Part shown: positions 19,496 through 64,000 of the stretch, piece after piece
How positions within the stretch are numbered: the first letter of the stretch is position 1
Layout: each line of letters opens with the position of its first letter
Assembly: GCA_016795295.1 (NCBI GenBank)
Contig: JAEUHP010000008.1
Location: 1 to 64,000 of the forward strand
From: Planctomycetota bacterium
GTDB taxonomy: Bacteria; Planctomycetota; UBA1135; UBA2386
DNA: 64,000 bases
Direction of reading: 5' to 3'
The notes under the pieces: model-generated
Databases searched by the model: none
What the model was told of the DNA's origin: nothing
What the model saw: the letters and a program-made list of their open reading frames with translations, nothing else
Translations under genes and position numbers: made by a program

Positions 19496-22400
19496 TCACT
19501 TCGCGACGCGCACTTCGACCACCGGCCCCGGCGCATGGCCGACGGTGAAGTCCGTGGCACCGCGCCAGCCGTCCCTGGTTTCGACCTCGACGCGGTAGCT
19601 GCCGGGCAGGAAGCCGCGCACCGGCGCCACCGACTTGTGCAGGGTTTCGCTGAGCAGTTCGACCCCCTGCTGGCGGAAGAGCAGCGTCGCCATGGTCGGT
19701 TCCGCTGGCAGGCCGACGATCTGGAACGTCGTCGGCACGGCGCGCTGCGGCGTCACCGACACCTGGACGGGCATTCCGGCGACCACGATCGGCAGGAACA
19801 GCGGCGCGATGTCGGCGCCCCAGACCAGCAGTTCGAAGTGGCCCGCGGGCAGGCTCGGCACGCTCGCGCGGTTTGCATCCAGCTCGCAGGGCAGTTTGCC
19901 GAAGTGGCGCGGACGCTCCGCCATGGCCAAGCCCGCCAGCAGGTCGCGCACACTGCCACCATCCGCGCAGGCGAAGTCGATGCGCAGGCTGGTCGGCATG
20001 TGCAGCGCGATCGTGCCGGTGTCGACGTCCGCCGCCGCCGCGACGTCGATTCGCCGCGGTAGCGTCAGGTATTCGCCGTCGTTTTCGCGCCGGAACGAGA
20101 GCTCGTAGATGCCGGCAGGGAGATTCGGGAAGCGGAAGGTCGCATCGGGTGCCTGCAAGCGCCGCCCCATCGAGCCGCGGTTGGGCGCCTCGAACAGGCC
20201 GAGCTCGGCGCGCACGTCGGCGAGCGCGATGCCGTCCGGCAGTTGCACGGCCCCGTGGATCGCCGCCGTCGGCATGGCCGCCTTGCCCACGACCACGACG
20301 GTGCGCCGACCGTTCGCCACCTTCGTGCGCGCCGAGGACACGATCCCCTTCCGCTGGTGGACCGAGACCTCGTAGGCTTCGTCGGCAACCTGCGGGAAGC
20401 GGACCACGCCCTCACGGTCGGTGTCGGCCTCGCGCACCGTGCCTGGGCCGGGATGCAGCGCCACCAGCCAACCGGCGAGCGGGGTCCGAGCCTCGTCGAC
20501 GACCTGCACCTCGACATCGACTGCAGGCAGCAGCGACCAGTCGCAGCGGGTCTCCTGCCCGGCGACGAGCACGAGCTGCTCCATCTTGCGCCACGACGGC
20601 CCGTAGCCGTAGACCTCGTAGTCGCCGGGCATCACGCCGTCGAACGAACAGCAGCCACGCGCATCGGTCCGACCGCGCGCAATCGCCGAAAAGTGCCTGT
20701 AGACCTCGCGCTCCGGCCGCCAACTGGCACAGATCTCCTGACCGACCACGGGCCGCCCGTCGGCACCGGTGAGCGAAACGACGAGGCGCGCGCCCGCATC
20801 GAACCGTACGTCGACCTGATGGCGCTGCTGGCCTTGCACGTCGGCGTCCGCACGCGCGAAGCGGAGCTCGCCTCCCCCGAGCTGCCGCAACGCGAACACC
20901 GTGACCGCTCCTGGCGGAACGTAGGCGCATTCGTAGCGACCCTGCGCATCGGCGACGAGTGCCATCGGCCGTTCGCCGGCCACGCCGGGCATGCGCGGCT
21001 GGATGGCGATCTCCGCCCCGGGCAATGGGCGGCCATCGGGGCCGAACACCGTGCCTGCGACGAGCGCGGGTCCGTCGTCGAGCACCAGCCGCGCCCGCGG
21101 TCGTCTCTGGTGCAGATCGACCGGGTGCGACGCGACGAAGCCGTTGGCGGTGGCCCGGATCGGCACACCCGAATCGAGGAACTGCGCGCGCCACCAGCCA
21201 TCGGCGCCGGTGTGGCCGAGCTCGCGTTCGACGACTTGCCCGACGTCGCTGTGCGTCCGCCCGAGAATGCGTGCGCCGGCGATCGCCTGGCCGCGGGCAT
21301 CGACCACTTCGACCGCAGCGGCCAGTTGGACCGGCAGCGTGATGAGCAGCTCGGTCTCGGCGTTGGCGACGACCTCGGCTTCGACCGGCTTCTTGTGCAT
21401 CAGGATCGCCGAACTCACCTTGGCCTTGCCTTCCGGCAGCGTGAACACCGCGACCCCCTGCGCGTCCGTGGTGCCGAACTGCAGAGCGCCGGGAATGGCA
21501 GCGCGCGGCGCGCCGTCCGGGCCAAGGCCTGCGGTCACCTCCAGGTTCAGGGCCACCGGCTCCTGCGTGCCGCCATGACGGAGAACCACGCGCAAGCGTC
21601 CCATGGGCGTCCGCCGCGCCGAGGCCGCCGCCACCACCTGCTCGCGGATTTCGGGTGCCGTGGCCTCCTCGTCCGCGGGTGCGGGTGCGATCGGTCGCAT
21701 CGTCATCGCCACGAGCGGCGGAGCACTTGCCGCCGCGTCGAGGTCGCCGCCGAATTCGGGCCACAGGCGCCACGCGCCCAACCCCAGCCCCAGAATCGCC
21801 ACCACCGCCAGAATCGACTTCTTCATCAGCAGTACTCCGATCACGCCCAAGACCACGTGACCCGAGCCCAGTGCGGCCACCGCAGTGCCACCCGGCACCG
21901 CGGTGAGCACGGCCTGCCGCATTGCCGCGAACGACTCCGGCGCCAACGCCGCGACGGCGAGCCCTCCGCCGACGAACCCCGATGGCAGCTTCTGCCGCAG
22001 TTGGTCGAGGCCGCGGTGCAGGCGCATGCGCACGGTGCCGGCCGGCACGCCGAGCTCGGCGGCGATCTCGTGCGCGGCTTGGCCGTGCACGAGATGCCGT
22101 TCGAGTGCTTCGCGGAATGGTTCGGCGAGGCGCTGCAGTGCCGTGCGGAACGCCGCCCCGAACTCGCCGTGTTCGGCGAGCTCCGCGGGATCCCGCTCGC
22201 CGGCCAACACGGTCACCCGCTCGCTCTCGAGCGCCCGCGCGTCCCGTCGGCGGTTCTCCCGCACGCGGTTGGCGAGCAGCCCGAGCAACCACGGCAGCAG
22301 TGGCCGCGCTGCGTCCCAGCGGTCCTTGGCTTCGATCGCGGTGAGGAACGTGTTCTGTACGGCATCCTCGGCGGCGTGCCGGTTGCGACACAGGTGTGCC

Positions 22401-22510
22401 GCCACCTTCCAGAGTTCAGGCGCCGTGCGATCGAATGCCTTCGCCAGCAGCCGGGGGTCCCCGGTGCGCCGGAAGCGTTCGAACCAGCGGTCTTCTCGAG
22501 CTCGGATCAC
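19496..22510 (-). CDS. ECF sigma factor fused to a membrane segment and a large carboxypeptidase-regulatory-like region
   Basis: One 1004-residue frame. Residues 20-90 are sigma region 2 (AAEDAVQNTFLTAIEA, PWLLGLLANRVRENRRRD) and 115-175 region 4 with the helix-turn-helix QAAHEIAAELGVPAGTVRMR. A hydrophobic stretch follows, then KK and a clear membrane helix at about 232-250 (ILAVVAILGLGLGAW). Residues 260-1004 are repeated beta domains of the CarboxypepD_reg type, for example VAGTVFGPDGRPLPGAEIAI and VSLTGADGRPVVGQ. The KK on the sigma side argues that the large part faces outside. Start is GTG 22510. No stop or frame break separates the parts, so this reads as a true fusion and not two genes. 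Confidence 0.88.
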   Translation of the reverse strand: MIRAREDRWFERFRRTGDPRLLAKAFDRTAPELWKVAAHLCRNRHAAEDAVQNTFLTAIEAKDRWDAARPLLPWLLGLLANRVRENRRRDARALESERVTVLAGERDPAELAEHGEFGAAFRTALQRLAEPFREALERHLVHGQAAHEIAAELGVPAGTVRMRLHRGLDQLRQKLPSGFVGGGLAVAALAPESFAAMRQAVLTAVPGGTAVAALGSGHVVLGVIGVLLMKKSILAVVAILGLGLGAWRLWPEFGGDLDAAASAPPLVAMTMRPIAPAPADEEATAPEIREQVVAAASARRTPMGRLRVVLRHGGTQEPVALNLEVTAGLGPDGAPRAAIPGALQFGTTDAQGVAVFTLPEGKAKVSSAILMHKKPVEAEVVANAETELLITLPVQLAAAVEVVDARGQAIAGARILGRTHSDVGQVVERELGHTGADGWWRAQFLDSGVPIRATANGFVASHPVDLHQRRPRARLVLDDGPALVAGTVFGPDGRPLPGAEIAIQPRMPGVAGERPMALVADAQGRYECAYVPPGAVTVFALRQLGGGELRFARADADVQGQQRHQVDVRFDAGARLVVSLTGADGRPVVGQEICASWRPEREVYRHFSAIARGRTDARGCCSFDGVMPGDYEVYGYGPSWRKMEQLVLVAGQETRCDWSLLPAVDVEVQVVDEARTPLAGWLVALHPGPGTVREADTDREGVVRFPQVADEAYEVSVHQRKGIVSSARTKVANGRRTVVVVGKAAMPTAAIHGAVQLPDGIALADVRAELGLFEAPNRGSMGRRLQAPDATFRFPNLPAGIYELSFRRENDGEYLTLPRRIDVAAAADVDTGTIALHMPTSLRIDFACADGGSVRDLLAGLAMAERPRHFGKLPCELDANRASVPSLPAGHFELLVWGADIAPLFLPIVVAGMPVQVSVTPQRAVPTTFQIVGLPAEPTMATLLFRQQGVELLSETLHKSVAPVRGFLPGSYRVEVETRDGWRGATDFTVGHAPGPVVEVRVAK

Positions 22511-22588: not shown

Positions 22589-24097
22589 TCACTGGAAACG
22601 CAAGCTCACCAGCGCCGCCTGCAAAGCCGCACCATCGCCTTCGTGCTGCAGCACGCCGTCCGCGAGCACCAGCAGGTTGTCGCGCAACAGCATCCTGAAG
22701 TGGTGCGTCGCGGCGCCTGGCTGCCCGCTGCGCGCCTGCCAGCTGCGGCTGTGTTCCTGGCAATCGTCCGCCCCGTCCCAGCCACAGCTCGCATCCGCGA
22801 ACGGCAGCCCGCGCTGCCGGCACAGTTCTGCGGCCCACGCTTCGGCGCTGGGTTTGCACCAGCGCAACATGCCGGCGGGCACTGCGTAACCGTGCAGCCA
22901 CAGCCGGCTGCCGCGCGGGCTGGTCCAGACCACGCGGAACAGGGCGCCGCCGGCCCGCTGTTCGGGGCGCCAGTCTTCCGGGCCGACACAGAGCACCCGG
23001 CCCGGATTGACGTAGCTCGTGCCTTCGAAGGTGCCGCCGGAGTGGTGTTCGAGCGCGTCCGCGGCCGCCGTCGCCGGGGTCCGTCGTGGATCGAGCAGGC
23101 GGTAGGTCTGCAGCAGCGCCTCGATCTCGATGCGGTGCTCGGCGAAGCTCGTTCGGCTGCCGCGCACCACGAGGCAGTGCTGCAGAGGCCCCTGCACCGC
23201 AACATGAGCCACCAGTTGCGCGTCGTCCGGAGCGGTACTGGGCGGCACCAGCGCCACCCGGGCACTGCCGGCCGTGGTCGTCGAATTGGGGGCCAGGCCC
23301 GGCAGCGGCCACGGCTCGGGCAGGACCCGGACTGCGCGATTGCCCGTCGCCGCACCGAGCGACCCAGCGAGGGCGGCCGCCGCCGCGTTGGCGGCCACCA
23401 CCGGGTTGGTCGCCGCCGGCAACGTCTGGAGGTGCACCGCGAGGTCGCAGGCGAGGTCGGTGCCGACCAGGTAGAACGTCGCTGCATCGAGGGCCTGGGC
23501 GCTGGCGCGGTCCTTCGGCACACACAGCCAGCCAGTGGCGCCGCCGAACACCAGGTTGCACGGTGGGCAGGCGAAACGCGCGTCGGCCGGGTGCGGTTCG
23601 GGCTGTGGCAGGGGGATGCAGAACGTCGGCACGGGAGCCTGGCCCGTGCGGCCGGCGAACGCGAACAGGGCGAATTCGACTCGGGCCGGCGCTCGGCCCT
23701 CGGCCGCGGCGAAGTCGTGCTGCACGCGCACTACGGTGCGGTTCTGGATCTGCCGTGGCGCGTCGAGCAGCCGGGAGGTGCGCTTGGCCGGCTCGGCGGT
23801 CGTGAACTGCAGCGCCAGCGCGCGGCCGAGCTGTTCGTGGCAACCCGGGTGGTCGGGCGCAAAGGCCGCCAGATAGGCGGCGCGGTCGCCGCGCCGGTGC
23901 AGGGTGTCCAGGTGGTCGAGGACCGGCTGCAGGGATTCGCTCGGTAGTGGTGCGGTTGGCCGTGGTGGGTTCGGCGCCACCGGTGCTTGGGCGGCGAGCG
24001 GACCCAGAGCCAACCAGCCCCCGAGCGCCGCGGCCACGAACGCAACCGGTGCCACGGACCGGTTGGGGGGCGCAGAGAGAACGCCGCAGCTTTGCAT
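22589..24097 (-). CDS. exported protein of unknown function in an ECF sigma operon
   Basis: ATG 24097 overlaps the stop of the upstream anti-sigma candidate (ATGA) and has GGGAG 7 nt before it, which decides the start over an in-frame ATG 10 codons upstream. The 502-residue product has a signal peptide (VAFVAAALGGWLALGPLAAQ). The mature part has a cysteine-containing segment FACPPCNLVFGGATGWLC and a C-terminal GWDGADDCQEH. It is Ala/Pro-rich with mixed alpha/beta character. No family is recognised; the operon position suggests a sensor or target of the sigma system. Confidence 0.75.
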   Translation of the reverse strand: MQSCGVLSAPPNRSVAPVAFVAAALGGWLALGPLAAQAPVAPNPPRPTAPLPSESLQPVLDHLDTLHRRGDRAAYLAAFAPDHPGCHEQLGRALALQFTTAEPAKRTSRLLDAPRQIQNRTVVRVQHDFAAAEGRAPARVEFALFAFAGRTGQAPVPTFCIPLPQPEPHPADARFACPPCNLVFGGATGWLCVPKDRASAQALDAATFYLVGTDLACDLAVHLQTLPAATNPVVAANAAAAALAGSLGAATGNRAVRVLPEPWPLPGLAPNSTTTAGSARVALVPPSTAPDDAQLVAHVAVQGPLQHCLVVRGSRTSFAEHRIEIEALLQTYRLLDPRRTPATAAADALEHHSGGTFEGTSYVNPGRVLCVGPEDWRPEQRAGGALFRVVWTSPRGSRLWLHGYAVPAGMLRWCKPSAEAWAAELCRQRGLPFADASCGWDGADDCQEHSRSWQARSGQPGAATHHFRMLLRDNLLVLADGVLQHEGDGAALQAALVSLRFQ

Positions 24098-24858
24098 CAG
24101 CGGCGCTCCCTTTGCTGCAGCAGCCAAGGGCCATCGGGCGCGCCCGCCGGCAGCGCGTCGGGATCGTCAGCGGCGACCAGCCCACCGAGGGCGGCGGCCA
24201 GGGGGCCTTCGTCACGGTGGTGGGCGAAGGCCGGCGCCACGGCTGTGTGGTGTCCCGTGGCGGGGGAGGTGGTCGGGCGGATCGCCAGCAACAGCCAGGT
24301 GCCCGCAGCGAGCGCCAGCAGGGGCGGCACCGCGCGCGAGAGCGTTCGCCAGGCCACGACCCGGCGTGGTGTGGCCGGTGCGGCCGGAGCCTGGGCCAGG
24401 GCGGCCAGGGTCTGTGCCACGAAGGTGGGCGAGGGCTCCGGCGCCACGTACTTGGCCAGCAGTGCCTGTAGCCGCTGGCGCTGGGCCTGTAGCCGCTGGC
24501 GCTGGGCCTGCAGCTGCTGGCGCTGGTCGGCGGCGATCGCCCGCACCGTGCGTTCGACGAACGTGGGCGAAGGCGGTGGCGCGGCGAATGCGGCGAGCCG
24601 GGTGCTGGTCAGTATCGGATCAGGGATGATCGGATCAGGGATGTCGACGGGCGCCCCGGAAACCGGCTCCGCAGCGTCGGCCGCAATGCGTGCCAGCGTG
24701 CGCGCCACGAAATCCGCGGAGATCTCCGGGGTCGTCTGGTTGGCGGGCAAGAGCCAGGTCGCCGCATCCGGGCAGCGCGCGGCGAAACGAGCCGCGGCTG
24801 CGGCCTCGGCGCTGCTCGGCCGGTTCGGCGCACCATCCGTCGGTTCGAAGGGGTCCAT
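24097..24858 (-). CDS. membrane protein, probable anti-sigma factor with three repeated helices
   Basis: The gene starts 2 nt after the ECF sigma gene stop, the usual anti-sigma position. The 253-residue product has one membrane helix near 176-193 (AVPPLLALAAGTWLLLAI) with about 175 residues on the cytoplasmic side. That side holds three copies of a short motif: ISADFVARTLARIAADA (46-62), SPTFVERTVRAIAAD (97-111) and SPTFVAQTLAALAQA (143-157). A Gln/Arg coiled segment (QRQQLQAQRQRLQAQRQRLQ) encoded by tandem DNA repeats separates the second and third. No zinc-binding HxxxCxxC is present. Assignment rests on context and topology. Confidence 0.65.
   Translation of the reverse strand: MDPFEPTDGAPNRPSSAEAAAAARFAARCPDAATWLLPANQTTPEISADFVARTLARIAADAAEPVSGAPVDIPDPIIPDPILTSTRLAAFAAPPPSPTFVERTVRAIAADQRQQLQAQRQRLQAQRQRLQALLAKYVAPEPSPTFVAQTLAALAQAPAAPATPRRVVAWRTLSRAVPPLLALAAGTWLLLAIRPTTSPATGHHTAVAPAFAHHRDEGPLAAALGGLVAADDPDALPAGAPDGPWLLQQRERR
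24465..24526 (-). repeat. tandem 21-bp repeat inside the anti-sigma candidate
   Basis: The unit starting CCTGTAGCCGCTGGCGCTGG is repeated exactly at 24465-24485 and 24486-24506, with a diverged third copy at 24507-24526. It encodes the Gln/Arg-rich heptads QAQRQRL. A second, 15-bp direct duplication (ATCGGATCAGGGATG at 24614-24628 and 24629-24643) encodes PDPIIPDPI in the same gene. Both keep the frame. Confidence 0.85.
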
Positions 24859-24860
24859 GG

Positions 24861-25442
24861 TCAGGCTCCGGCGCGCAGGTAGGGCTCGAGTTTGCGCCGC
24901 AGGGCTTCTTTGGCGCGGAACAGGCGGGACTTCACGGTGCCTTCGTTGACCCCGGTCACGGCGGCGATCGCCGGCACGTCGAGGCCTTCGTACTCGCGCA
25001 GCACGAACACCATGCGCTGGTCCTCGCCGAGTTCGCCGAGGGCTTCGCCGATGCGCCGGCCGAGTTCGCGGTTCTCGAGGTCCTGGGTCGGCAGCAGTTC
25101 GCGGCGGTCGGTGGGGGCCGGCACGGGCGCGCCGTCTGGATCGCCGTCGAGCGGCACCGTGCGCAGCCGGCGGCGCTTGTGCGCGTCGTAGCAGTGGTTG
25201 CGCACGAACGTGTAGACCCAGGTGGTGAACTTGGCGCGGCTCGGGTCGAAGGTGCCGAGGGCGCGAAACACCTTGAGGAACACCTCCTGGGCGAGGTCTT
25301 CGGCCTCCTGCTGGTGGCCCGGGCCGAGGAAGCGGTAGATGGTGGCGATCACCGGCCGGTGCAGGGCTTCGACGAGCGCGCGGCAGGCGTCCTGGTCGCC
25401 TTGCTGGGCCCTCTGCACGGTGCTTTCGGCGACCTCGGTCAT
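24861..25442 (-). CDS. ECF RNA polymerase sigma factor
   Basis: A 193-residue sigma factor with region 2 (EAEDLAQEVFLKVFRALGTF, FTTWVYTFVRNHCYD) and region 4 (VFVLREYEGLDVPAIAAVTG followed by VNEGTVKSRLFRAKEALRRK). ATG 25442 gives MTEVAESTVQRAQQGD, the normal start of RpoE-like proteins; longer readings upstream lack similarity. It is followed on the same strand by the anti-sigma candidate and the exported protein, forming a three-gene signalling operon that ends 78 nt before the sigma-fusion gene. Confidence 0.93.
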   Translation of the reverse strand: MTEVAESTVQRAQQGDQDACRALVEALHRPVIATIYRFLGPGHQQEAEDLAQEVFLKVFRALGTFDPSRAKFTTWVYTFVRNHCYDAHKRRRLRTVPLDGDPDGAPVPAPTDRRELLPTQDLENRELGRRIGEALGELGEDQRMVFVLREYEGLDVPAIAAVTGVNEGTVKSRLFRAKEALRRKLEPYLRAGA

Positions 25443-25534
25443 CGGCACGAACCCCGGTTCTACGCCCCAGCGCGCGCTGGGTTCCAAGGAATCCGCGGCT
25501 CGCAGCGGCCCGGGCCACGGGATAGCGTGCCGGC

Positions 25535-46106: not shown

Positions 46107-47339
46107 ATGACGTTCGCCACGATTCCAGAACTGCTCGACGAACTGGCCAAGGGCCGGCCGATCGTGCTCGTCGACGACCCCGACCGCGAGAACGAGGGCG
46201 ACCTGTGCTTCGCCGCCCAGTTCGCCACCCCCGAGCTGGTCAACCAGATGATCCGCGATGCCCGCGGCTTGGTCTGCCTGGCGCTCGATCCGGCGATCTG
46301 CGACCAGTTGCAGCTGCCGATGCAGGTGCAGGAGAACAAGTCGCGCTTCGGCACCGCGTTCACGGTCAGCATCGAGGCCGCGGACGGCGTGTCGACCGGG
46401 ATTTCGGCCAAGGACCGAGCCCGCACCATCCTGGCGGCCGTGGCGCCCGAGGCGAAGCCGCAGGATCTGGCGCGCCCCGGCCACGTGTTCCCGCTGCGCG
46501 CCCGCGAGGGTGGGGTGCTGGTGCGCACCGGCCAGACCGAGGGCATCGTCGACCTGTGCCGGCTGGCCGGCCTGCGCCCCGCGGGTGTGATCTGCGAGAT
46601 CATCAAGGACGACGGCGAGATGGCCCGGGTACCCGACCTCGAGCAGTTCTGCGCGAAGTTCGGCGTCAAGATGGGCGCCATCGCCGACTTGGTGGAGTAC
46701 CGTCGCCGCCGCGAGCGCCTGATCGAACGGGTCGCCGTGGCACGCATGCCGACGCAGTTCGGCATGTTCGATTGCCACACCTACCACAGCCTGGTCGACG
46801 GCCGGACCCACATGGCGCTGGCCCTGGGCATCGATCGGGTCGGCGGCACTGGGCGCTTCCCGCCGCTGGCAGGGCCGGTATTGGTCCGGGTGCACTCGCA
46901 GTGCCTGACCGGCGATGTGTTCGGTTCGCTGCGCTGCGACTGCGGCGAGCAGCTGCACGAGGCGATGCGGCGCATCCAGGCGGCTGGGCGCGGCATCCTG
47001 CTCTACATCAGCCAGGAGGGGCGCGGCATCGGCCTCGCCAACAAGCTGCGCGCCTACGCCTTGCAGGACCAGGGGCTCGACACGGTGGAGGCCAACGTGC
47101 ACCTCGGCTTCCGCCCGGACGAGCGCGAGTTCGGCACCGGGGCGCAGATCCTGCACGACTTGGGCTGCCGTCAGCTCCGGGTGCTGACCAACAACCCGAA
47201 GAAACTGAACGGGCTCGCCGGGTACGGCCTCGAAGTGGTCGAGCACGAGCCGCTGCGGATTGCACCGAACCCGCACAACCAACGCTACTTGGAGACCAAG
47301 CGCGACAAGTTGGGGCACCTCCTGGCCAAGCCGGAATGA
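46107..47339 (+). CDS. ribBA: bifunctional 3,4-dihydroxy-2-butanone-4-phosphate synthase / GTP cyclohydrolase II
   Basis: Supplies both precursors of riboflavin. Residues 1-205 are the DHBP synthase: VLVDDPDRENEGDL, the PGHVFPLRA segment, and a loop that reads RTGQTEGIVDL where many enzymes have GHTEA. Residues 206-410 are GTP cyclohydrolase II with zinc ligands in SQCLTGDVFGSLRCDCGEQL, catalytic SQEGRGIGLANKL and VLTNNPKKLNGL. ATG 46107 gives the typical TFATIPELLDEL start; the frame is open upstream without similarity. An ECF sigma gene follows after 61 nt. Confidence 0.95.
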   Translation: MTFATIPELLDELAKGRPIVLVDDPDRENEGDLCFAAQFATPELVNQMIRDARGLVCLALDPAICDQLQLPMQVQENKSRFGTAFTVSIEAADGVSTGISAKDRARTILAAVAPEAKPQDLARPGHVFPLRAREGGVLVRTGQTEGIVDLCRLAGLRPAGVICEIIKDDGEMARVPDLEQFCAKFGVKMGAIADLVEYRRRRERLIERVAVARMPTQFGMFDCHTYHSLVDGRTHMALALGIDRVGGTGRFPPLAGPVLVRVHSQCLTGDVFGSLRCDCGEQLHEAMRRIQAAGRGILLYISQEGRGIGLANKLRAYALQDQGLDTVEANVHLGFRPDEREFGTGAQILHDLGCRQLRVLTNNPKKLNGLAGYGLEVVEHEPLRIAPNPHNQRYLETKRDKLGHLLAKPE

Positions 47340-47400
47340 GGCGGCGGCCCGGACTGCGCGGTGCGGGAAGAAAACCGCGGGCAGCCCTTCCAAGAGGGAC

Positions 47401-48084
47401 GTGCTGGCCTTGAAGCAAGCTCCCGAGACCGACCAAGAACTGATCGCCGCCGTGCTCGCCGGCAGCGAAGCGGCGTTCGCGCAGTTGGTCGAGCGTTACC
47501 GCGACCGGCTGTTCCGGTTGCTCGGCCGCTACTGCCGCGATCCGATCGAAGTGGAGGATCTGGCCCAGGACGTGTTCCTGAAGGTGTTCCGCAAGCTGCA
47601 CACGTTCCAGGGCGACTCCGCGTTCTACACCTGGCTCTACCGCATCGCGGTGAACGCCGCGACCGACCGCTTGGCGCGCGCCAGCCACCGCCGCCTGAAG
47701 TTGGTCGGCGACGATGCCATGCTCGACGGCACCTTCGGCGGGGGCGGCTCCCGTTCGGCGGAGGAAGGCCCGCACGGCTCTGGCTCGCCCGGGCGCGGCG
47801 ACGGCCGCCCGCGGCAGGGGGAAGTGGACCGCGACGATCCGGCCGCGCCGCTGCTGCGTGACGAACTGGTCGCGGCGACCCGGCGCATCGTCGACGGGCT
47901 GCCCGAGAAGTATCGGACGATCCTGATCCTGCGCGAGTTCGAGGACCTTTCCTACACCGAGATCGCCGCGGTGCTGCAGTGCAATCTGGGCACCGTGGAG
48001 TCCCGGCTGTTCCGGGCGCGCCAGCGCTTCAAAGCCGCCCTCGAACAGCACCATCCCGAGTTGCTGCCACGCGGCGCGCCCTGA
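47401..48084 (+). CDS. ECF RNA polymerase sigma factor
   Basis: Region 2: LVERYRDRLFRLLGRYCRD, EVEDLAQDVFLKVFRKLHTF, TWLYRIAVNAATDRLAR; region 4: RTILILREFEDLSYTEIAAV and NLGTVESRLFRARQRFKAAL. About 227 residues from GTG 47401; TTG 47410 is possible because GAGGG (47394-47398) sits 2 nt from the GTG but 11 nt from the TTG. The linker between regions 2 and 4 holds an unusual Gly/Ser/Arg-rich run (FGGGGSRSAEEGPHGSGSPG). Followed by the anti-sigma candidate after 76 nt. Confidence 0.94.
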   Translation: MLALKQAPETDQELIAAVLAGSEAAFAQLVERYRDRLFRLLGRYCRDPIEVEDLAQDVFLKVFRKLHTFQGDSAFYTWLYRIAVNAATDRLARASHRRLKLVGDDAMLDGTFGGGGSRSAEEGPHGSGSPGRGDGRPRQGEVDRDDPAAPLLRDELVAATRRIVDGLPEKYRTILILREFEDLSYTEIAAVLQCNLGTVESRLFRARQRFKAALEQHHPELLPRGAP

Positions 48085-57150: not shown

Positions 57151-59514
57151 TCAGCGCTGCAGCAGCCGCAGGACCACCGGGCGGTCGTAGCCCTCGCCGA
57201 ACACCACCGGCACTCGGGCGACGAAGCCGTTCTGGCCGTAGGCGATGGCCTCGTATTCGCCCGGCGCCAGCCAAGCGGTGAAGGACACCGCGCCGTCGCC
57301 TTGGCGCTGGCCTTCGCCCAGCCACTGCTGGTCGCGTCCGGGTACCCGCAGCGCCAGGCTGAGCGTCCGGCCTGCCGCAGCCGGAGCTTCGAGGGTGAAG
57401 GGCCGCCGCACGCCGCGCTGCAGGACGATGTCGCGCTGCTGTTCCACCCCGGCCGGGAGGTCGATCTCGAAGGTGGCCGCCGCCACCGAAGGCCCTTGCA
57501 CCTGCAGACGCTGCCGGCCGTTCGGCACGCCGTCGAGCCGGTAACTGCCGCCGCTGTAGCTGGCGTCGATGCGCCCCTGGTCGGTCAACACGAACAGCTC
57601 GAGGCTGGCGGGCGGCTGGCCATCGGCGCCGACCACCGAGCCGAACATGGCGCCACTGGCCGTGAGCACCACGGTGCCGAGGTCGAGGTCGGCGGTGCCG
57701 TCGAAGGCGAATTCGGCCCGCACCCAGCGCACGTGGCCCGGGTGTTCGACCAGCACGGCCACCGTGCCTGCCGGCACCGAAGCGAAGCGCAGGGTGCCGT
57801 CGGCGGCCGCGCTCGTGCGCACGCTGCGCTGCAGGTCGCGGTGCAGCAAGGTGGCGCTGGCGGCGATGGCCAGGCCCAGGCCGTCGACCACCCGGCCGGT
57901 CACCGCGCGGCGCGGCCGCGCCCGGTCCACCGCGAAGTGCACCGGCGCGCTGCTGGGATCCGGCACTTCGAGCAGGCCGTCGGGCAGACTGCCGGCAGGT
58001 GTGCCGGGGGCGAACGCCAGCAGCACGGCGCTGCCGCTGCCCGGACGCAAAACGAAGGTGCCGTCGCTGCCGGTGCGGGTCCCCTGAGGGCCACCGTCTC
58101 GCGGTTGGCAGACCACTGTCCAACCTGCCAACGGCTGGTCGGCGCGGTCGACCAACCGGCCCTGCAGTTCGGGCCCGCCGGCAGTGAGTTGGGCGTTCCA
58201 GACGTGTTCGCCGCCGGCTTCCAGCAGCACGGCCGACTGGGCGCGCTGGGCTGTGCCGGCGAGGGTGGCATCCACCGCCAGCACCTGGTCGCCTGCCGGC
58301 AGTCCTTCGAGCCGGAAGCTGCCGTCGGCACCACTCCGCGCCGCACCCGTCTGGGTGCCATCGGCCGCGGTGGCGGTGACTGCGGCCCCCTGGACCAGCC
58401 GGCCGTCGGCAAAGCGCACGGTGCCGCGCACCACGGCTTCACGGCTCAGGACCAGGTCCAGACGCACGGGAACGTCCGGTTGCAGCGTGATCGTGCCGGA
58501 GCCCGTGGCGAAGCCCTGGGCGCGCACCCAGTAGTGGCGGGTGCCTGGGGCCACGCGATGGCACTGGAAGGTGCCCGCGGCGTCGGTCCTGGCGCGCGAC
58601 GGCGGTGTGGCGAGTTCGCGCGAATGGGCTGTGGCTTCGCTGGCGAACAGCACGTTGGCGTTGGCGATCGGCTGGCCTTGGGCATCGAGCACGGTGCCCT
58701 GCACCTCGGTGCCCTGGCTGAGCAGTACCAGGCGCACGGCGAGTTCGTGCGGCGGCTCGCCCGCCGCGCTGCCGCGGATCCAGGCGCAGGGGGACGGCGC
58801 GTGGTCTTGGTGGTGGGCACCCAGGTGTCCGGGCCCCGGCAGCGGCAACCAGAAACTGCCGTCGGCGCCGCTGCGGCCGACCGTGCCGCCGTCGGTCGCC
58901 TGCGGGGTCGTCCCACGTTCTGCGCTCCAGGGCAGGAAACACAGAGTCGCGCCGGCGACCGGCTGCCCGTCGCGGGCCACCACGTTGCCGCGCACCACCG
59001 CCCGCGCGTCGACCACCAGGTCGGTCGTGAGCGTGGTACCCGGCTGGAGCCTGACCGTGGTGGGGGGCGTGAGCGAGGTGCGCACCGTGGCCTCCCGCCG
59101 ACCTTGGCACGGCACGGCGAACGTGGCCGCGCCGGCGGCGTCGGTGGCCTGTTCGCCTTGCCATGGCACTGCGGCTGCCCCGGCGCCAGGGCCACTGGTG
59201 AGTGCGGTCACCAGCACTTCGACCCCGGGCAACGCCGTGCCGTCTTGCGCCGTGACCCGTACCCGCAGTGCGGCGGCTCCTTCCGGGGTGGCGGTGCGTT
59301 GCAGACCGGGGTCTGCGACGGGGGTCCCGGGGCTGGTTTGCGGCCCGCTCGAGCCCTCGGCGGGCAATGCCGAGGCGCCCGGTGCACCCGAGCGCAGCGG
59401 CATTGCCGGAACCAGCGGTACCATCGGGATGCAGTCGGCACCACGCGCGAACCAAGCGGCAGTGGCGGCGCACAGCGTGAGGACCACCAGGACCAGGAAC
59501 ACGGGCCACCGCAC
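57151..59514 (-). CDS. exported protein with many carboxypeptidase-regulatory-like domains
   Basis: GTG 59514 starts an N-terminal signal or anchor (VFLVLVVLTLCAATAAWF). The 787-residue protein is a chain of about seven beta-sandwich CarboxypepD_reg-type domains; each carries a line such as LRVRVTAQDGTALPGVEVLV, VQGTVLDAQGQPIANANVLF, VRGTVRFADGRLVQGAAVTA, LQGRLVDRADQPLAGWTVVC or VTGRVVDGLGLAIAASATLL. They resemble the outer part of the sigma fusion at 19496-22510. Such domains are structural or ligand-binding. The gene follows the kinase after 37 nt on the same strand, so it may be the kinase's extracytoplasmic partner. Confidence 0.85.
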   Translation of the reverse strand: MRWPVFLVLVVLTLCAATAAWFARGADCIPMVPLVPAMPLRSGAPGASALPAEGSSGPQTSPGTPVADPGLQRTATPEGAAALRVRVTAQDGTALPGVEVLVTALTSGPGAGAAAVPWQGEQATDAAGAATFAVPCQGRREATVRTSLTPPTTVRLQPGTTLTTDLVVDARAVVRGNVVARDGQPVAGATLCFLPWSAERGTTPQATDGGTVGRSGADGSFWLPLPGPGHLGAHHQDHAPSPCAWIRGSAAGEPPHELAVRLVLLSQGTEVQGTVLDAQGQPIANANVLFASEATAHSRELATPPSRARTDAAGTFQCHRVAPGTRHYWVRAQGFATGSGTITLQPDVPVRLDLVLSREAVVRGTVRFADGRLVQGAAVTATAADGTQTGAARSGADGSFRLEGLPAGDQVLAVDATLAGTAQRAQSAVLLEAGGEHVWNAQLTAGGPELQGRLVDRADQPLAGWTVVCQPRDGGPQGTRTGSDGTFVLRPGSGSAVLLAFAPGTPAGSLPDGLLEVPDPSSAPVHFAVDRARPRRAVTGRVVDGLGLAIAASATLLHRDLQRSVRTSAAADGTLRFASVPAGTVAVLVEHPGHVRWVRAEFAFDGTADLDLGTVVLTASGAMFGSVVGADGQPPASLELFVLTDQGRIDASYSGGSYRLDGVPNGRQRLQVQGPSVAAATFEIDLPAGVEQQRDIVLQRGVRRPFTLEAPAAAGRTLSLALRVPGRDQQWLGEGQRQGDGAVSFTAWLAPGEYEAIAYGQNGFVARVPVVFGEGYDRPVVLRLLQR

Positions 59515-59551
59515 AGTGGGAACCTATACGCAATCAACGGGCGCGAGTGGC

Positions 59552-62500
59552 TCAGATTCTCGCGCCACGGCCCCAAGTGGCCAGGAACCGCTGGCGGCTC
59601 GAGCGGCTGGGCACCCGTTCGGCGATGGTTCGGGCCAGGGACCGGGCCGAGGCCGGGCGCTCGAGCCGCTCCAGGGCGCGCAGGTGCAGCGACAGCGGCA
59701 GGTCGGTTTCGGCCAGCAGCGCTTCGAGTTCGCTGCGCCGCGCCTCGTCGAGAGGGGTGCTGGGATCCTGGGCCAGGATCCAGTTGCACCGCACCGACGG
59801 CAGTTCGAGGGACTCGACCAGCGCGGCCAGATCGGGGTCGTTCGCCCCGAGCCGCAGCAGGTAGGCGCGCGCCATCGCTTCGCCCAGGCGGTCGCCGCCG
59901 GCGTGGGCCATCGCGGCCGCGCGGGCGAAGGTGTGCCGGGCTTCGTCGTCGCGCCGGCGCCAGAACTGGCGTTCGGCCAGGAACAGGGTCGCCCGGCCGG
60001 CGTAGGCCGGCAGCGACAGCCGTTCGGCTTCGTCGACCGCGAAGCGCAGATCCTGCGCCGCTTCGTCGTCGCCGAGCACGGCGCGCACCTGGCCGCGGTA
60101 CAGGTGCAGGCGCAGGCGCACCCGCGGCAGCGCGCGCGCGGCCTGGTTCTGTTCGACGCGCTGCAGGGTCTTCAGCGCGGTGGGGTAGTGGTGCTGCAGC
60201 GCCTCGATGCGGGCCAGGTCGACGAGCAGGTGGCAGCGCAGGTCGTCCTGGTCGCTGGGCAACCGGTGCAAGGCGGCCTGCAACTGGCGGTTACCGTCCG
60301 CGGCCTGGCCGCGGTAGAGCAGGATCCGGCCGTGCAGGCCGTGGGCCTGCGCGGCGAGGGCATCGGGTCCGGGCCCGGTGGCGCGCTGCAGGTCGTCGTG
60401 CACCGACTCGAGCAGCGCGATCGCCGACCACAGCCGGCCGGCGTCGAGCGCGCGCGCGGCCAGTGCAGTGCGTGCTGCCGCCGACCCCTCGACGTCGCCC
60501 AGGGTCTGCGCCAGGGTCTCGGCGCGTTGGAAGTCGCGGCTGGCGGCTTCGTGCTGGCCGGCATTGACGCGAGCCTTGCCCGCGAGCAGCAGGTAGCGCA
60601 GCCGCCGTCGCCGGTTCGCTTCGTGGTCGGGCACCGCGGCGAAGTGCACCGCCAGGCGCCCGGCGATGCGCAGTGCGGTGCGCCGGGAGCCGGCGCGCAC
60701 GCGTTCGTCGAGCCCTTGCAGCAGCGGATCGAGGCACGCTTCGTGCTCCAGCGCCTGCGACAGGTGCATGCCGATCTCGAGCGCCGGGCGGCCGCGGCGG
60801 GCCAGCAGCGCCGCGGCGCGGCGGTGCAGGTCGGCGCGCGCCTCTGCCGCCAGGGTCGACAGCAGGACCTTCAGGAAGTCGCGGTGGCGGAACGACACTT
60901 CACCACCCTGCGCGCGCACGATGCGGCCGCGGAACAGGGACAGGGTCTCCAGCACCGCCAGCGGCGGGCTGCCCACCAGTTCGGCCAGATCGTCGAGCCG
61001 GCAGCGTTCGCCGAGCACGGCGGTGGCCGCCAGCACCGCGCGCTGCGCGGCATCCAGGCTGGCGACCCGCGCGCGGAACCGCGCCAGGTGGCTCGGTGCC
61101 GGCCGCAGTTCGACGCCGGGCTGCAGGCTGTGGTAGTCGCCGGCGCGGCCCTGCACGGCGCCTTCCTGGGCCAAATGGTCGAGGGCCTCGACCAGGTTGC
61201 CGGGCAGGCCGCTGGTCATCTGGTGCGCGCCCGCCAGGAATGCTTCGTCGACGGCGCCCGGGCGGAACAGGGCGCGGCCGAACGCCAGGAATTCGGCTTC
61301 TTCGAGTCCGACCAGGTCGAGCCGGCGGTCGACGTCCACCGCCACTGGCTCGAGGCCGGTGGCCAGCAGCAGCAGCAGGGGCTGCGTCCGGCCGCGCGCA
61401 GCCAGGCGCTGCAGCACCAGGCGGCCGCTGGTGTCGAGCCGTTCGGCGTGGTCGACGCGCAGCACCAACGGCCGCTGCGGCTGCGGCAGGCGCAACAGCG
61501 CCGACGCCAGGCGGTCGGCGCGCACTTCGGGCGGTTCGGTGCTGGTGCCCAGCGCCACTGCCGCGAGCGCTTCGGCCTCCGCTTCGCTGCACTGCAGCAA
61601 CGCCACGGCGGCGGCCGCGGCGCGCGGCGCCGCCTGCGGCGAATCGCGGCCATCGCCGCGCAACAGCCAGTCGAGCAGCGCCGAGGCGAACGGCTCGCCG
61701 TGGCCGAGCCCGCTGTCGGCGTCGCCGCCGAGGTAGAGCGGCGCTTGCTTGCCCTCGAGCCAGCCCGCCATCGCTTCGTCGTAGAGACGCCGGCGGCCGA
61801 TGCCTTCGGGACCGGAGACGACCACCACGCGGCCCACGCCCGTGCGCGCCAGGGCCAGTTCGGCGTCGAGTGCGGTGAGCTCGGCGGTGCGACCGAAGAA
61901 CGGTGTGTCCGCCGGCCGGCGCATGCGCAAGAGACGGCGGCCGCTGGCCAGCGCTGGGGCGCGCGCTTCGTGGCGGCGCCAGTATTCGGACTGTTCGCCC
62001 TGCTGCAGCACACGCTGCAGTTCGGCGGCATCCTTCAAGCGGCGATCGGGGTCCTTCTGCAGGAGGTCGAGCAGCACCTGCTCGAGCAGCGGCGAGATGC
62101 GCGCGCGCAGGTGCGAGGGGCGCGGCGGCGGGGTCTCGCGGTGCGCCAGCATCATCTCGTCGGCGGTGCCGGCGTTGTGGAACGGATGGCGACCGGTGGT
62201 GACTTCGAACAGCACCACGCCGAGTGCATAGAGGTCGGCGCGCGGGCCACTCGGTTTGCCCTGCAGCACTTCGGGAGCGGTATAGGCGAGGCTGCCGGCG
62301 AAGCCGCCGGAGCTGCGGCGGCTGTGGCCACTGCTGCTGCCGCCCGAGCCAGCGCTGCCAGAACCGGCGCTTCCCGAGCCGCTACCGCCCGAGCCGCTAC
62401 TGCCCGAGCCGCCACTGCCAGAACCGGCACTGCCGGAGCCACCCTCCGCGCCCGCGCCACCCGCCGCGAACGGCCGCGCCAGGCCCAGGTCGACGATGCA

Positions 62501-63061
62501 CACGCGGCTGTCCGGGGTCAGGATCAGGTTCTCGGGCTTGATGTCGCGGTGCACGAGGCCGCGGCGGTGCAGGGCGAACAGGCCTGCGGCGGCGTCGGCG
62601 CCGATACGCCGGGTCAAGTCCTCGACCGGCGCGCCGCTCTTGGCGACGAATTCGCGCAGGGTGGTGCCGGGCACGTACTGCATCACCAGGTAGGTGATGG
62701 GCAGGCCGAGCAGTTCGATGGTCTCGACGCCGTAGATGGCGGCGACGTTGGGGTGGGCCAGGGTCTGGCCGAGTTCGCCTTCGGCGAAGAAGCGGGCCTG
62801 GGCCTTCTCGTCCACCGCAAGTTCCTTGCGCAGGAACTTGATGGCGACTTCGGCGCCGGCGGGCAGGTCCTTGTACGGGGCGCGCAGGCGGGCCTTGTGC
62901 ACGGTGCCCGAGGAGCCGCGGCCGACCTCGGCGAGCAGGTCGAAGTGGCCGCCGAGCGCCTGGGAGACGCCTGGGGCAAGGGGGGGCCGGGGTTCCGGCT
63001 GCGGCGTTCCCTTTGGGGTGGACACTTCCTGCGTTGTAGCGGCGGCGGCGGCAAGTTCCAT
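59552..63061 (-). CDS. Ser/Thr protein kinase with AAA-like and TPR-like regions
   Basis: ATG 63061 gives 1169 residues. Kinase domain: G-loop EVGRGSSGTVHKA near 47, Lys75 in VAIKF, catalytic Asp173 in VHRDIKPENL, DLG at 191-193 in place of DFG, APE at 262-264. Between DLG and APE lies a 54-residue Gly/Ser insert. From about 385 an AAA-like part begins (FFGRTAELTALDAELALART); its P-loop reads GPEGIGRRR (417 on), with Arg instead of Lys. The last 500 residues are helical, TPR-like. No membrane helix. Overall layout recalls PknK/AAA16 kinases, which are signal integrators. Divergent from cysS. Confidence 0.9.
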   Translation of the reverse strand: MELAAAAATTQEVSTPKGTPQPEPRPPLAPGVSQALGGHFDLLAEVGRGSSGTVHKARLRAPYKDLPAGAEVAIKFLRKELAVDEKAQARFFAEGELGQTLAHPNVAAIYGVETIELLGLPITYLVMQYVPGTTLREFVAKSGAPVEDLTRRIGADAAAGLFALHRRGLVHRDIKPENLILTPDSRVCIVDLGLARPFAAGGAGAEGGSGSAGSGSGGSGSSGSGGSGSGSAGSGSAGSGGSSSGHSRRSSGGFAGSLAYTAPEVLQGKPSGPRADLYALGVVLFEVTTGRHPFHNAGTADEMMLAHRETPPPRPSHLRARISPLLEQVLLDLLQKDPDRRLKDAAELQRVLQQGEQSEYWRRHEARAPALASGRRLLRMRRPADTPFFGRTAELTALDAELALARTGVGRVVVVSGPEGIGRRRLYDEAMAGWLEGKQAPLYLGGDADSGLGHGEPFASALLDWLLRGDGRDSPQAAPRAAAAAVALLQCSEAEAEALAAVALGTSTEPPEVRADRLASALLRLPQPQRPLVLRVDHAERLDTSGRLVLQRLAARGRTQPLLLLLATGLEPVAVDVDRRLDLVGLEEAEFLAFGRALFRPGAVDEAFLAGAHQMTSGLPGNLVEALDHLAQEGAVQGRAGDYHSLQPGVELRPAPSHLARFRARVASLDAAQRAVLAATAVLGERCRLDDLAELVGSPPLAVLETLSLFRGRIVRAQGGEVSFRHRDFLKVLLSTLAAEARADLHRRAAALLARRGRPALEIGMHLSQALEHEACLDPLLQGLDERVRAGSRRTALRIAGRLAVHFAAVPDHEANRRRRLRYLLLAGKARVNAGQHEAASRDFQRAETLAQTLGDVEGSAAARTALAARALDAGRLWSAIALLESVHDDLQRATGPGPDALAAQAHGLHGRILLYRGQAADGNRQLQAALHRLPSDQDDLRCHLLVDLARIEALQHHYPTALKTLQRVEQNQAARALPRVRLRLHLYRGQVRAVLGDDEAAQDLRFAVDEAERLSLPAYAGRATLFLAERQFWRRRDDEARHTFARAAAMAHAGGDRLGEAMARAYLLRLGANDPDLAALVESLELPSVRCNWILAQDPSTPLDEARRSELEALLAETDLPLSLHLRALERLERPASARSLARTIAERVPSRSSRQRFLATWGRGARI
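62306..62467 (-). repeat. Gly/Ser low-complexity repeat inside the kinase gene
   Basis: On the plus strand this is a chain of 9- and 18-bp units of the type CCGAGCCGCTACCGCCCGAG and CCAGAACCGGCACTG, encoding GSGSAGSGSGGSGSSGSGG-like protein. It keeps the reading frame and sits exactly between the kinase DLG and APE motifs. Units differ by single substitutions, as expected of expansion by slippage. Confidence 0.9.
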
Positions 63062-63195
63062 CGGTTGGCCACGGCTAGGGGACTGGGTCACCCTGCAGCT
63101 GCAGCACCGCGGAGCGGGTCTTCGCGCCCGGATCCGCACCCATCGTTGCAAGCGACACCCCGCGGGCCTTTGATCGGCGCAGCCGAACCGCCCGC

Positions 63196-64000
63196 ATGCC
63201 GATCCAGCTCTACAACTCGCTGAGCCGCTCTCTGGTCGAACTGCGCCCGCTCGTGCCGGGCAAGGTCACCATGTACCACTGCGGCCCGACCGTCTACAGC
63301 TCGCCGCACATCGGCAACTTCCGCAGCTTCCTGTTCGCCGACGTGCTGCGCCGCTTCGTCGAGGACCAGGGCTTCCAGGTCACCCAGGTGATGAACGTCA
63401 CCGACGTCGGCCACCTGACCCTCGACGACATCGAAGGCGGTGAAGACAAGATGGAGGCCGCGTCGCGCAAAACCGGCATGACCGCGTGGGACATCGCCAA
63501 GAAGTACGAGGCCGAGTTCCACGACTGCCAGCGCCAGCTGTTCGTGCGCCTGCCGCACCACATGCCGCGCGCCACCGAATTCGTGCCGCAGATGGGGGCG
63601 ATCATCGACGACCTGCTGCAGAAGGGCATCGCCTACCAGAAGGCCGGCAACGTCTACTTCGAAGTCGCGAAGTTCCCCGGCTACGGCAAGCTGTCCGGCA
63701 AGGTGCTGGACGAACTCGAAGCCGGCGCGCGTGTCGCGGTGAACGACGAGAAGAAGGATCCGCGCGACTTCGCCCTGTGGAAAACCGACGCCAAGCACCA
63801 GATGCAGTGGGATGCGCCGTTCCGCGGCGGCGCGCGCGGCTTTCCCGGCTGGCACATCGAGTGCTCGGCGATGTCGATGCACTACCTGGGCCCGCAGATC
63901 GACATCCACACCGGGGGCGAGGACAACATGTTTCCGCACCACGAGTGTGAGATCGCGCAGACCGAAGCGCACACGGGCCGGCAGTTCGTGTCGGTCTGGA
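63196..64000 (+). CDS. cysS: cysteine-tRNA ligase (3' end outside window)
   Basis: ATG 63196 begins [20 protein letters not shown]. The 268 residues present cover the class I catalytic domain: zinc ligand Cys in [17 protein letters not shown] with the HIGH-type [34 protein letters not shown] and [20 protein letters not shown] with further zinc ligands. The VGHLTLDD...GEDK form instead of the short VDDK is a known variant. The KMSKS loop and anticodon domain lie beyond the window. No ribosome site is obvious. Confidence 0.95.

Follow-up and report, generated by a model that had tools for sequence, protein, structure and literature searches.

A planctomycete ECF sigma factor fused to a membrane-anchored external protein, with a probable second translation start at the joint

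Membrane-tethered sigma factors are known from few examples. According to a published review, IutY of Pseudomonas putida, an ECF243 sigma/anti-sigma hybrid, is the only one with characterised proteolytic activation, its sigma being freed by Prc and then by RseP (PMC5411451, PMC8999054). IutY has 374 aa, carries a periplasmic anti-sigma domain and works with a partner outer-membrane receptor. The ECF48, ECF52 and ECF53 groups of Actinobacteria (e.g. SCO4117) are extended at the C-terminus by one or two membrane helices plus an external region and carry a zinc-finger anti-sigma-like domain before the membrane; proteolytic activation has been proposed for them (PMC8999054). In the SigI/RsgI pairs of Clostridium thermocellum, a single-pass membrane anti-sigma with external sensor domains controls the sigma, each partner has its own gene, and RseP cuts within the membrane helix (PMC12203970). 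Nested in-frame starts in one gene are a known device, exemplified by the long and short forms of SpaO and the AerR isoforms (PMC13059759, PMC6199135).

Here we analyzed a gene in a 64,000-nucleotide stretch of planctomycete DNA (the window). As the first-pass annotation had stated, the frame at 19496-22510 runs unbroken through 1004 codons. It lies on the minus strand, opens with GTG and has no internal stop. The features of the gene are as follows.

19496..22510, minus strand: long product L (sigma, linker, membrane helix, external domains), 1004 aa, GTG start
22235..22435, minus strand: Sigma-70 region 2, residues 26-92; Pfam PF04542 (Sigma70_r2), 2.1e-9
21992..22153, minus strand: Sigma-70 region 4, residues 120-173; Pfam PF08281 and PF04545
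21827..21982, minus strand: cytoplasmic linker, residues 177-228, with a conserved LAAxRxxVL-like motif; in L only
21835..21838, minus strand: internal Shine-Dalgarno GGAG, 8 nt before ATG; based on sequence, conservation and synonymous controls
21824..21826, minus strand: probable internal in-frame start ATG, residue 229 (MKKSILAVV...); based on start-codon constraint and open mRNA
21761..21817, minus strand: membrane helix, approximately residues 232-250; the 19 residues at the junction have a hydropathy of 2.3, and family members keep the helix in this place
19499..21760, minus strand: external part, residues 251-1004 (~750 residues), with three CarboxypepD_reg stretches
20876..21061, minus strand: top-scoring CarboxypepD_reg stretch, residues 484-545; Pfam PF13620
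19496..21826, minus strand: predicted short product S of 776 aa, comprising the membrane helix and the external domains but no sigma; based on the conserved internal start

The sigma regions 2 and 4, the membrane helix preceded by KK and the chain of carboxypeptidase-regulatory-like domains that had been noted at first pass were all recovered. Matches to Sigma70_r2, to Sigma70_r4_2 (residues 120-171, 1.1e-8) and to CarboxypepD_reg (three stretches in the external part, 4.2e-25) each exceed the Pfam curated cut-off. The hydrophobic segment of ~19 residues starts after KK (229-MKKSILAVVAILGLGLGAWRLW) and is a single helix following MKK at 229-231. The external part also has weaker Pfam matches to Ig-like and prealbumin-like folds, and its single-sequence structure prediction gave a pLDDT of 33, which is too low for use. 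The C-terminus of the fused protein presumably faces outward.

Judged by its sequence, the N-terminus of the fused gene is an ECF sigma factor, with regions 2 and 4 present and regions 1 and 3 absent, as the definition of ECF factors has it. Classification by HMM, which the annotation had proposed, placed it above the NCBIfam cut-off for the sigma70-ECF superfamily (68.9 bits, cut-off 42.9) and below the cut-offs of two named planctomycete ECF subfamilies, TIGR02984 (47.0 bits, cut-off 183.75) and TIGR02989 (64.6 bits, cut-off 124.55). The profile of the family (first 242 positions) matches solved ECF sigma structures over positions 11-170, the best being SigW at 1.3e-23. The region between the sigma part and the membrane helix is a linker of only ~50 residues, in which Arg198, Val201 and Gly225 are invariant in an alignment of 21 rows. 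A Pfam search of the fused protein up to E = 1 found no anti-sigma domain of either the FecR or the zinc-finger type.

Like IutY, the protein combines a sigma domain, a single membrane helix and a presumably periplasmic part within one polypeptide. It differs from IutY in its ~750 carboxypeptidase-regulatory-like external residues, in the missing anti-sigma domain, in its large paralogous family and in the probable conserved second start at the joint. It likewise differs from ECF48, ECF52 and ECF53 in phylum, in external domains and in the missing zinc finger. Because the anti-sigma domains of IutY and of these groups are missing here, we do not file the gene as a member of either. Unlike in SigI/RsgI, the sigma here is fused, and S would lack the cytoplasmic sigma-binding part. 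In contrast to SpaO and AerR, the parts that the internal start would set apart here are a sigma factor and a membrane surface protein, and the start signal recurs across a whole paralogous family.

The search for similar fusions suggested at first pass revealed a large planctomycete family. We examined 103 extended members, with more present across the phylum, and nearly all consist of sigma, membrane helix and long tail; the helix lies 20-60 residues past region 4 in nearly all of them, and complete members mostly have 640-900 more residues after it. A layout shared by nearly all of these members indicates that the fusion is not due to chance. The search for relatives gave matches in 61 of 61 genomes, and most of the leading matches lie within frames of ~1000 codons. 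At a threshold of 1e-30, a sigma-linker-helix profile was found in 80 of 154 genomes of the order and in 49 of 392 genomes drawn across the phylum. The source genome has ~60 sigma-like matches. About 12 of these, counting the window gene, run uninterrupted for 780-1400 codons, and the membrane helix was checked in at most eight of them besides the window gene. Orthologues in other genomes (44-53% identity) are fused too, and thus the frame is not an assembly accident. A scan of named genomes for close relatives returned one planctomycete relative (L050), whose frame is broken. No neighbouring gene is common to the window locus and the orthologues checked, so that gene context provides no functional lead.

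At the joint between linker and membrane helix lies a feature absent from the first-pass annotation. The DNA there reads GTG ATC GGA GTA CTG CTG ATG AAG AAG, and its GGAG...ATG has the form of an ordinary ribosome-binding site with its start codon. In three genomes of the order, CCTCC at the 3' end of the 16S matches this Shine-Dalgarno (SD) element; the 16S of the source genome was not found, and the anti-SD was taken from those three. In the DNA of 65 frames the joint pattern recurs as GGA, a G-initial codon, two codons, ATG or GTG, one of K/S/T/A, and lysine. As a control that leaves the protein unchanged, we replaced the junction codons by synonymous ones, following the codon use of the gene concerned. 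An SD with an in-frame start is present in 35 of 63 genes of the discovery set (7.5 ± 2.5 expected from recoding) and in 26 of 40 genes of a second, independent set, taken from different families within the order (7.2 ± 2.2 expected).

We also anchored 81 members by protein sequence only. Codon -4 is a glycine in 54 of the 81, and 49 of the 54 use GGA, a codon that encodes 13% of all glycines in these genes. Its share is 3-28% at the further conserved glycines of these proteins, versus 83-91% at the joint. Where valine replaces the start methionine it is encoded by GTG in 18 of 21 cases, against a background of 43%. Of the 12 anchored members from outside the class, 11 show the same joint pattern. 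The predicted mRNA structure reaches its weakest point right at the joint, at -9.4 kcal/mol per 45 nt compared with about -16 to -19 farther off; it is weaker there than in synonymously recoded sequence (z = 8.2), and there is no such weakening elsewhere. Only where the joint has a start codon is the SD in excess; the 12 members without one are at expectation. An SD with a start occurs at 55 of 78 internal sites versus 14 of 78 sigma N-termini, the latter having been searched widely. Since the members are related, binomial values overstate the significance of these counts, and we rely on the synonymous and conserved-glycine controls, which together rule out chance codon use at the joint. Thus, we conclude that selection acts on the SD, the start codon and the open mRNA at the joint, and that codon 229 is very probably a second, conserved translation start.

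The first part contains an SD with a start in only 11 of the window's 28 coding-like frames. Starts led by an SD thus seem to be the less common kind in this genome, and the internal start stands out against this background. About one third of the members are without a clear SD or start at the joint, and S is therefore not needed for every paralogue. The joint site is weakened in some orthologues, one having GGG (L074) and another no SD (L026).

The gene most likely makes both L (1004 aa) and S (776 aa). The linker ahead of the second start is conserved as protein, which implies that full-length L is also under selection. The first-pass annotation had viewed sensor, anchor and transcription factor as one molecule and a separate start near residue 230 as incompatible with this. 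The single frame and the conserved fusion uphold the first view, but the start signal at the joint points to a second, sigma-less product alongside the fused one. The signal for such a start is indeed present in the sequence; it would add a product and does not abolish the fusion.

Other explanations of the joint were considered. If only the full-length protein were made, with the sigma freed by proteolysis, as the first-pass annotation supposed, the GGAG could be a translational pause that aids insertion of the helix. The site immediately precedes the membrane helix, and SD-like elements are known to pause translation in membrane-protein genes of E. coli (PMC4359368). However, a pause has no need of a start codon, yet ATG or GTG is constrained at the joint, and the SD excess disappears in the 12 members that lack a start. 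Moreover, the published pauses are at codons 16-60 and are not raised in E. coli proteins with at least 80 residues ahead of the first helix (PMC4359368). We regard a pause as improbable. It is also unlikely that the gene is mainly a surface protein whose sigma part is non-working or just a cytoplasmic dock. The external part makes up most of the protein and S should be the major product, both as this explanation would have it, but regions 2 and 4 align over their length with structurally solved ECF factors and the core positions of the sigma are invariant, which argues that the sigma fold is under selection.

The joint signal could be a dead relic of the fusion, through stop loss, of a sigma gene and a downstream membrane-protein gene. 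This is the obvious origin of the arrangement, and standalone S-type genes exist, as at 57154-59523 (minus strand), where an N-terminal hydrophobic anchor is followed by five CarboxypepD_reg stretches. However, members are ~40-75% identical to the window gene in this region and the linker is conserved, so that the fusion in the main subfamily looks ancient. The GGA of a relic would have been lost at such divergence, and its preference at the joint over other conserved glycines requires continuing selection, which leaves a relic with a slim chance. Programmed frameshifting driven by the SD-like element, giving a free sigma that ends just past the joint, is very unlikely. Frameshifting in dnaX and prfB is stimulated by internal SDs, and lysine codons come next here. 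However, stops within 15 codons are near the synonymous expectation in the +1 frame (0.78 versus 0.70) and in the +2 frame (0.00 versus 0.06), and no common slippery sequence occurs at a fixed distance.

We favor, with somewhat more confidence than doubt, a dual-product signalling gene that combines a tethered-sigma L, a sigma-less S that tunes it, and release by proteases. In L, an ECF sigma would be covalently attached to the inner membrane and continue into a sensor or surface domain on the outside. S, started at ATG229, would be this membrane-anchored external protein alone, with neither sigma nor cytoplasmic linker. Of the two starts, the internal one seems to have the better ribosome-binding site. 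S should therefore be the more abundant product, which would leave L as a sigma-carrying minority among identical external domains. An external event may turn L into a substrate of a periplasmic protease and then of a site-2 protease, and cleavage would free the N-terminal ~230 residues for binding to RNA polymerase. Proteolytic release is plausible given the IutY precedent (PMC5411451) and the RseP-like site-2 protease (614 aa) encoded in the source genome; we consider the case for it evenly balanced. S could share a ligand, partner or protease with L outside, and would set the share of the external signal that reaches L. With almost no cytoplasmic part and no linker, S is unlikely to act as an anti-sigma from inside.

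In its broadest form, which in our judgment may equally well hold or fail, the proposal is that multi-copy genes with two nested starts occur throughout the phylum, each encoding a surface protein and a minority form with its own internal sigma. The cell would read the fate of the surface protein directly, by way of its sigma-bearing fraction and without a separate anti-sigma, two ribosome-binding sites setting the sensor dose. In this genome about a dozen copies place sensor, anchor and sigma in one gene, in a phylum whose signalling is poorly understood. The conserved internal start leads to a testable tuning rule, namely the ratio between surface protein with sigma and surface protein without it. 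Annotation of the long frame alone would miss the probably more abundant product, and tagging or knock-out studies of these genes would be misread if the second start were ignored. Our literature search, whose coverage did not extend to the ECF reclassification and two planctomycete surveys, found no paper on the fusion or its second start, and none that brings Planctomycetes together with both sigma-70 and carboxypeptidase regulatory domains. It is the fusion, rather than the second start, that may have been mentioned before. What is unusual here is a sigma on one of two nested forms across a paralogous family.

Several further observations concern related genes and the surroundings of the locus. 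Short frames with intact starts that might have been split sigma/membrane gene pairs, and hence intermediates (L213, L215, the end of L216, L219), reach contig ends and were rejected. Upstream of the fused gene on the same strand is an unknown 512-codon gene (22589-24127). The region 24097-25520 (minus strand) contains an ECF sigma gene of the usual kind (~24861-25440) and, after it, a frame that may include a membrane helix and could encode the matching anti-sigma factor. Another ECF sigma gene, without extension, is at 47209-48081 (plus strand). Immediately upstream of the standalone S-type gene is a gene for a serine/threonine kinase that also has an AAA domain (59555-63265). Fusion genes occur in tandem on one strand elsewhere, five in L217 (1450-18671, gaps of 43-230 nt) and four in L107 (3903-15616). 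Distant sigma subfamilies with another linker (RDW...) are also fused to a helix and external part (L007, L009, L059, L088 and L100, the last at 139-2814), which suggests that the arrangement predates the main subfamily or arose more than once. GGA-G...ATG is present at the joint in four of these as well (L007, L009, L088 and L100).
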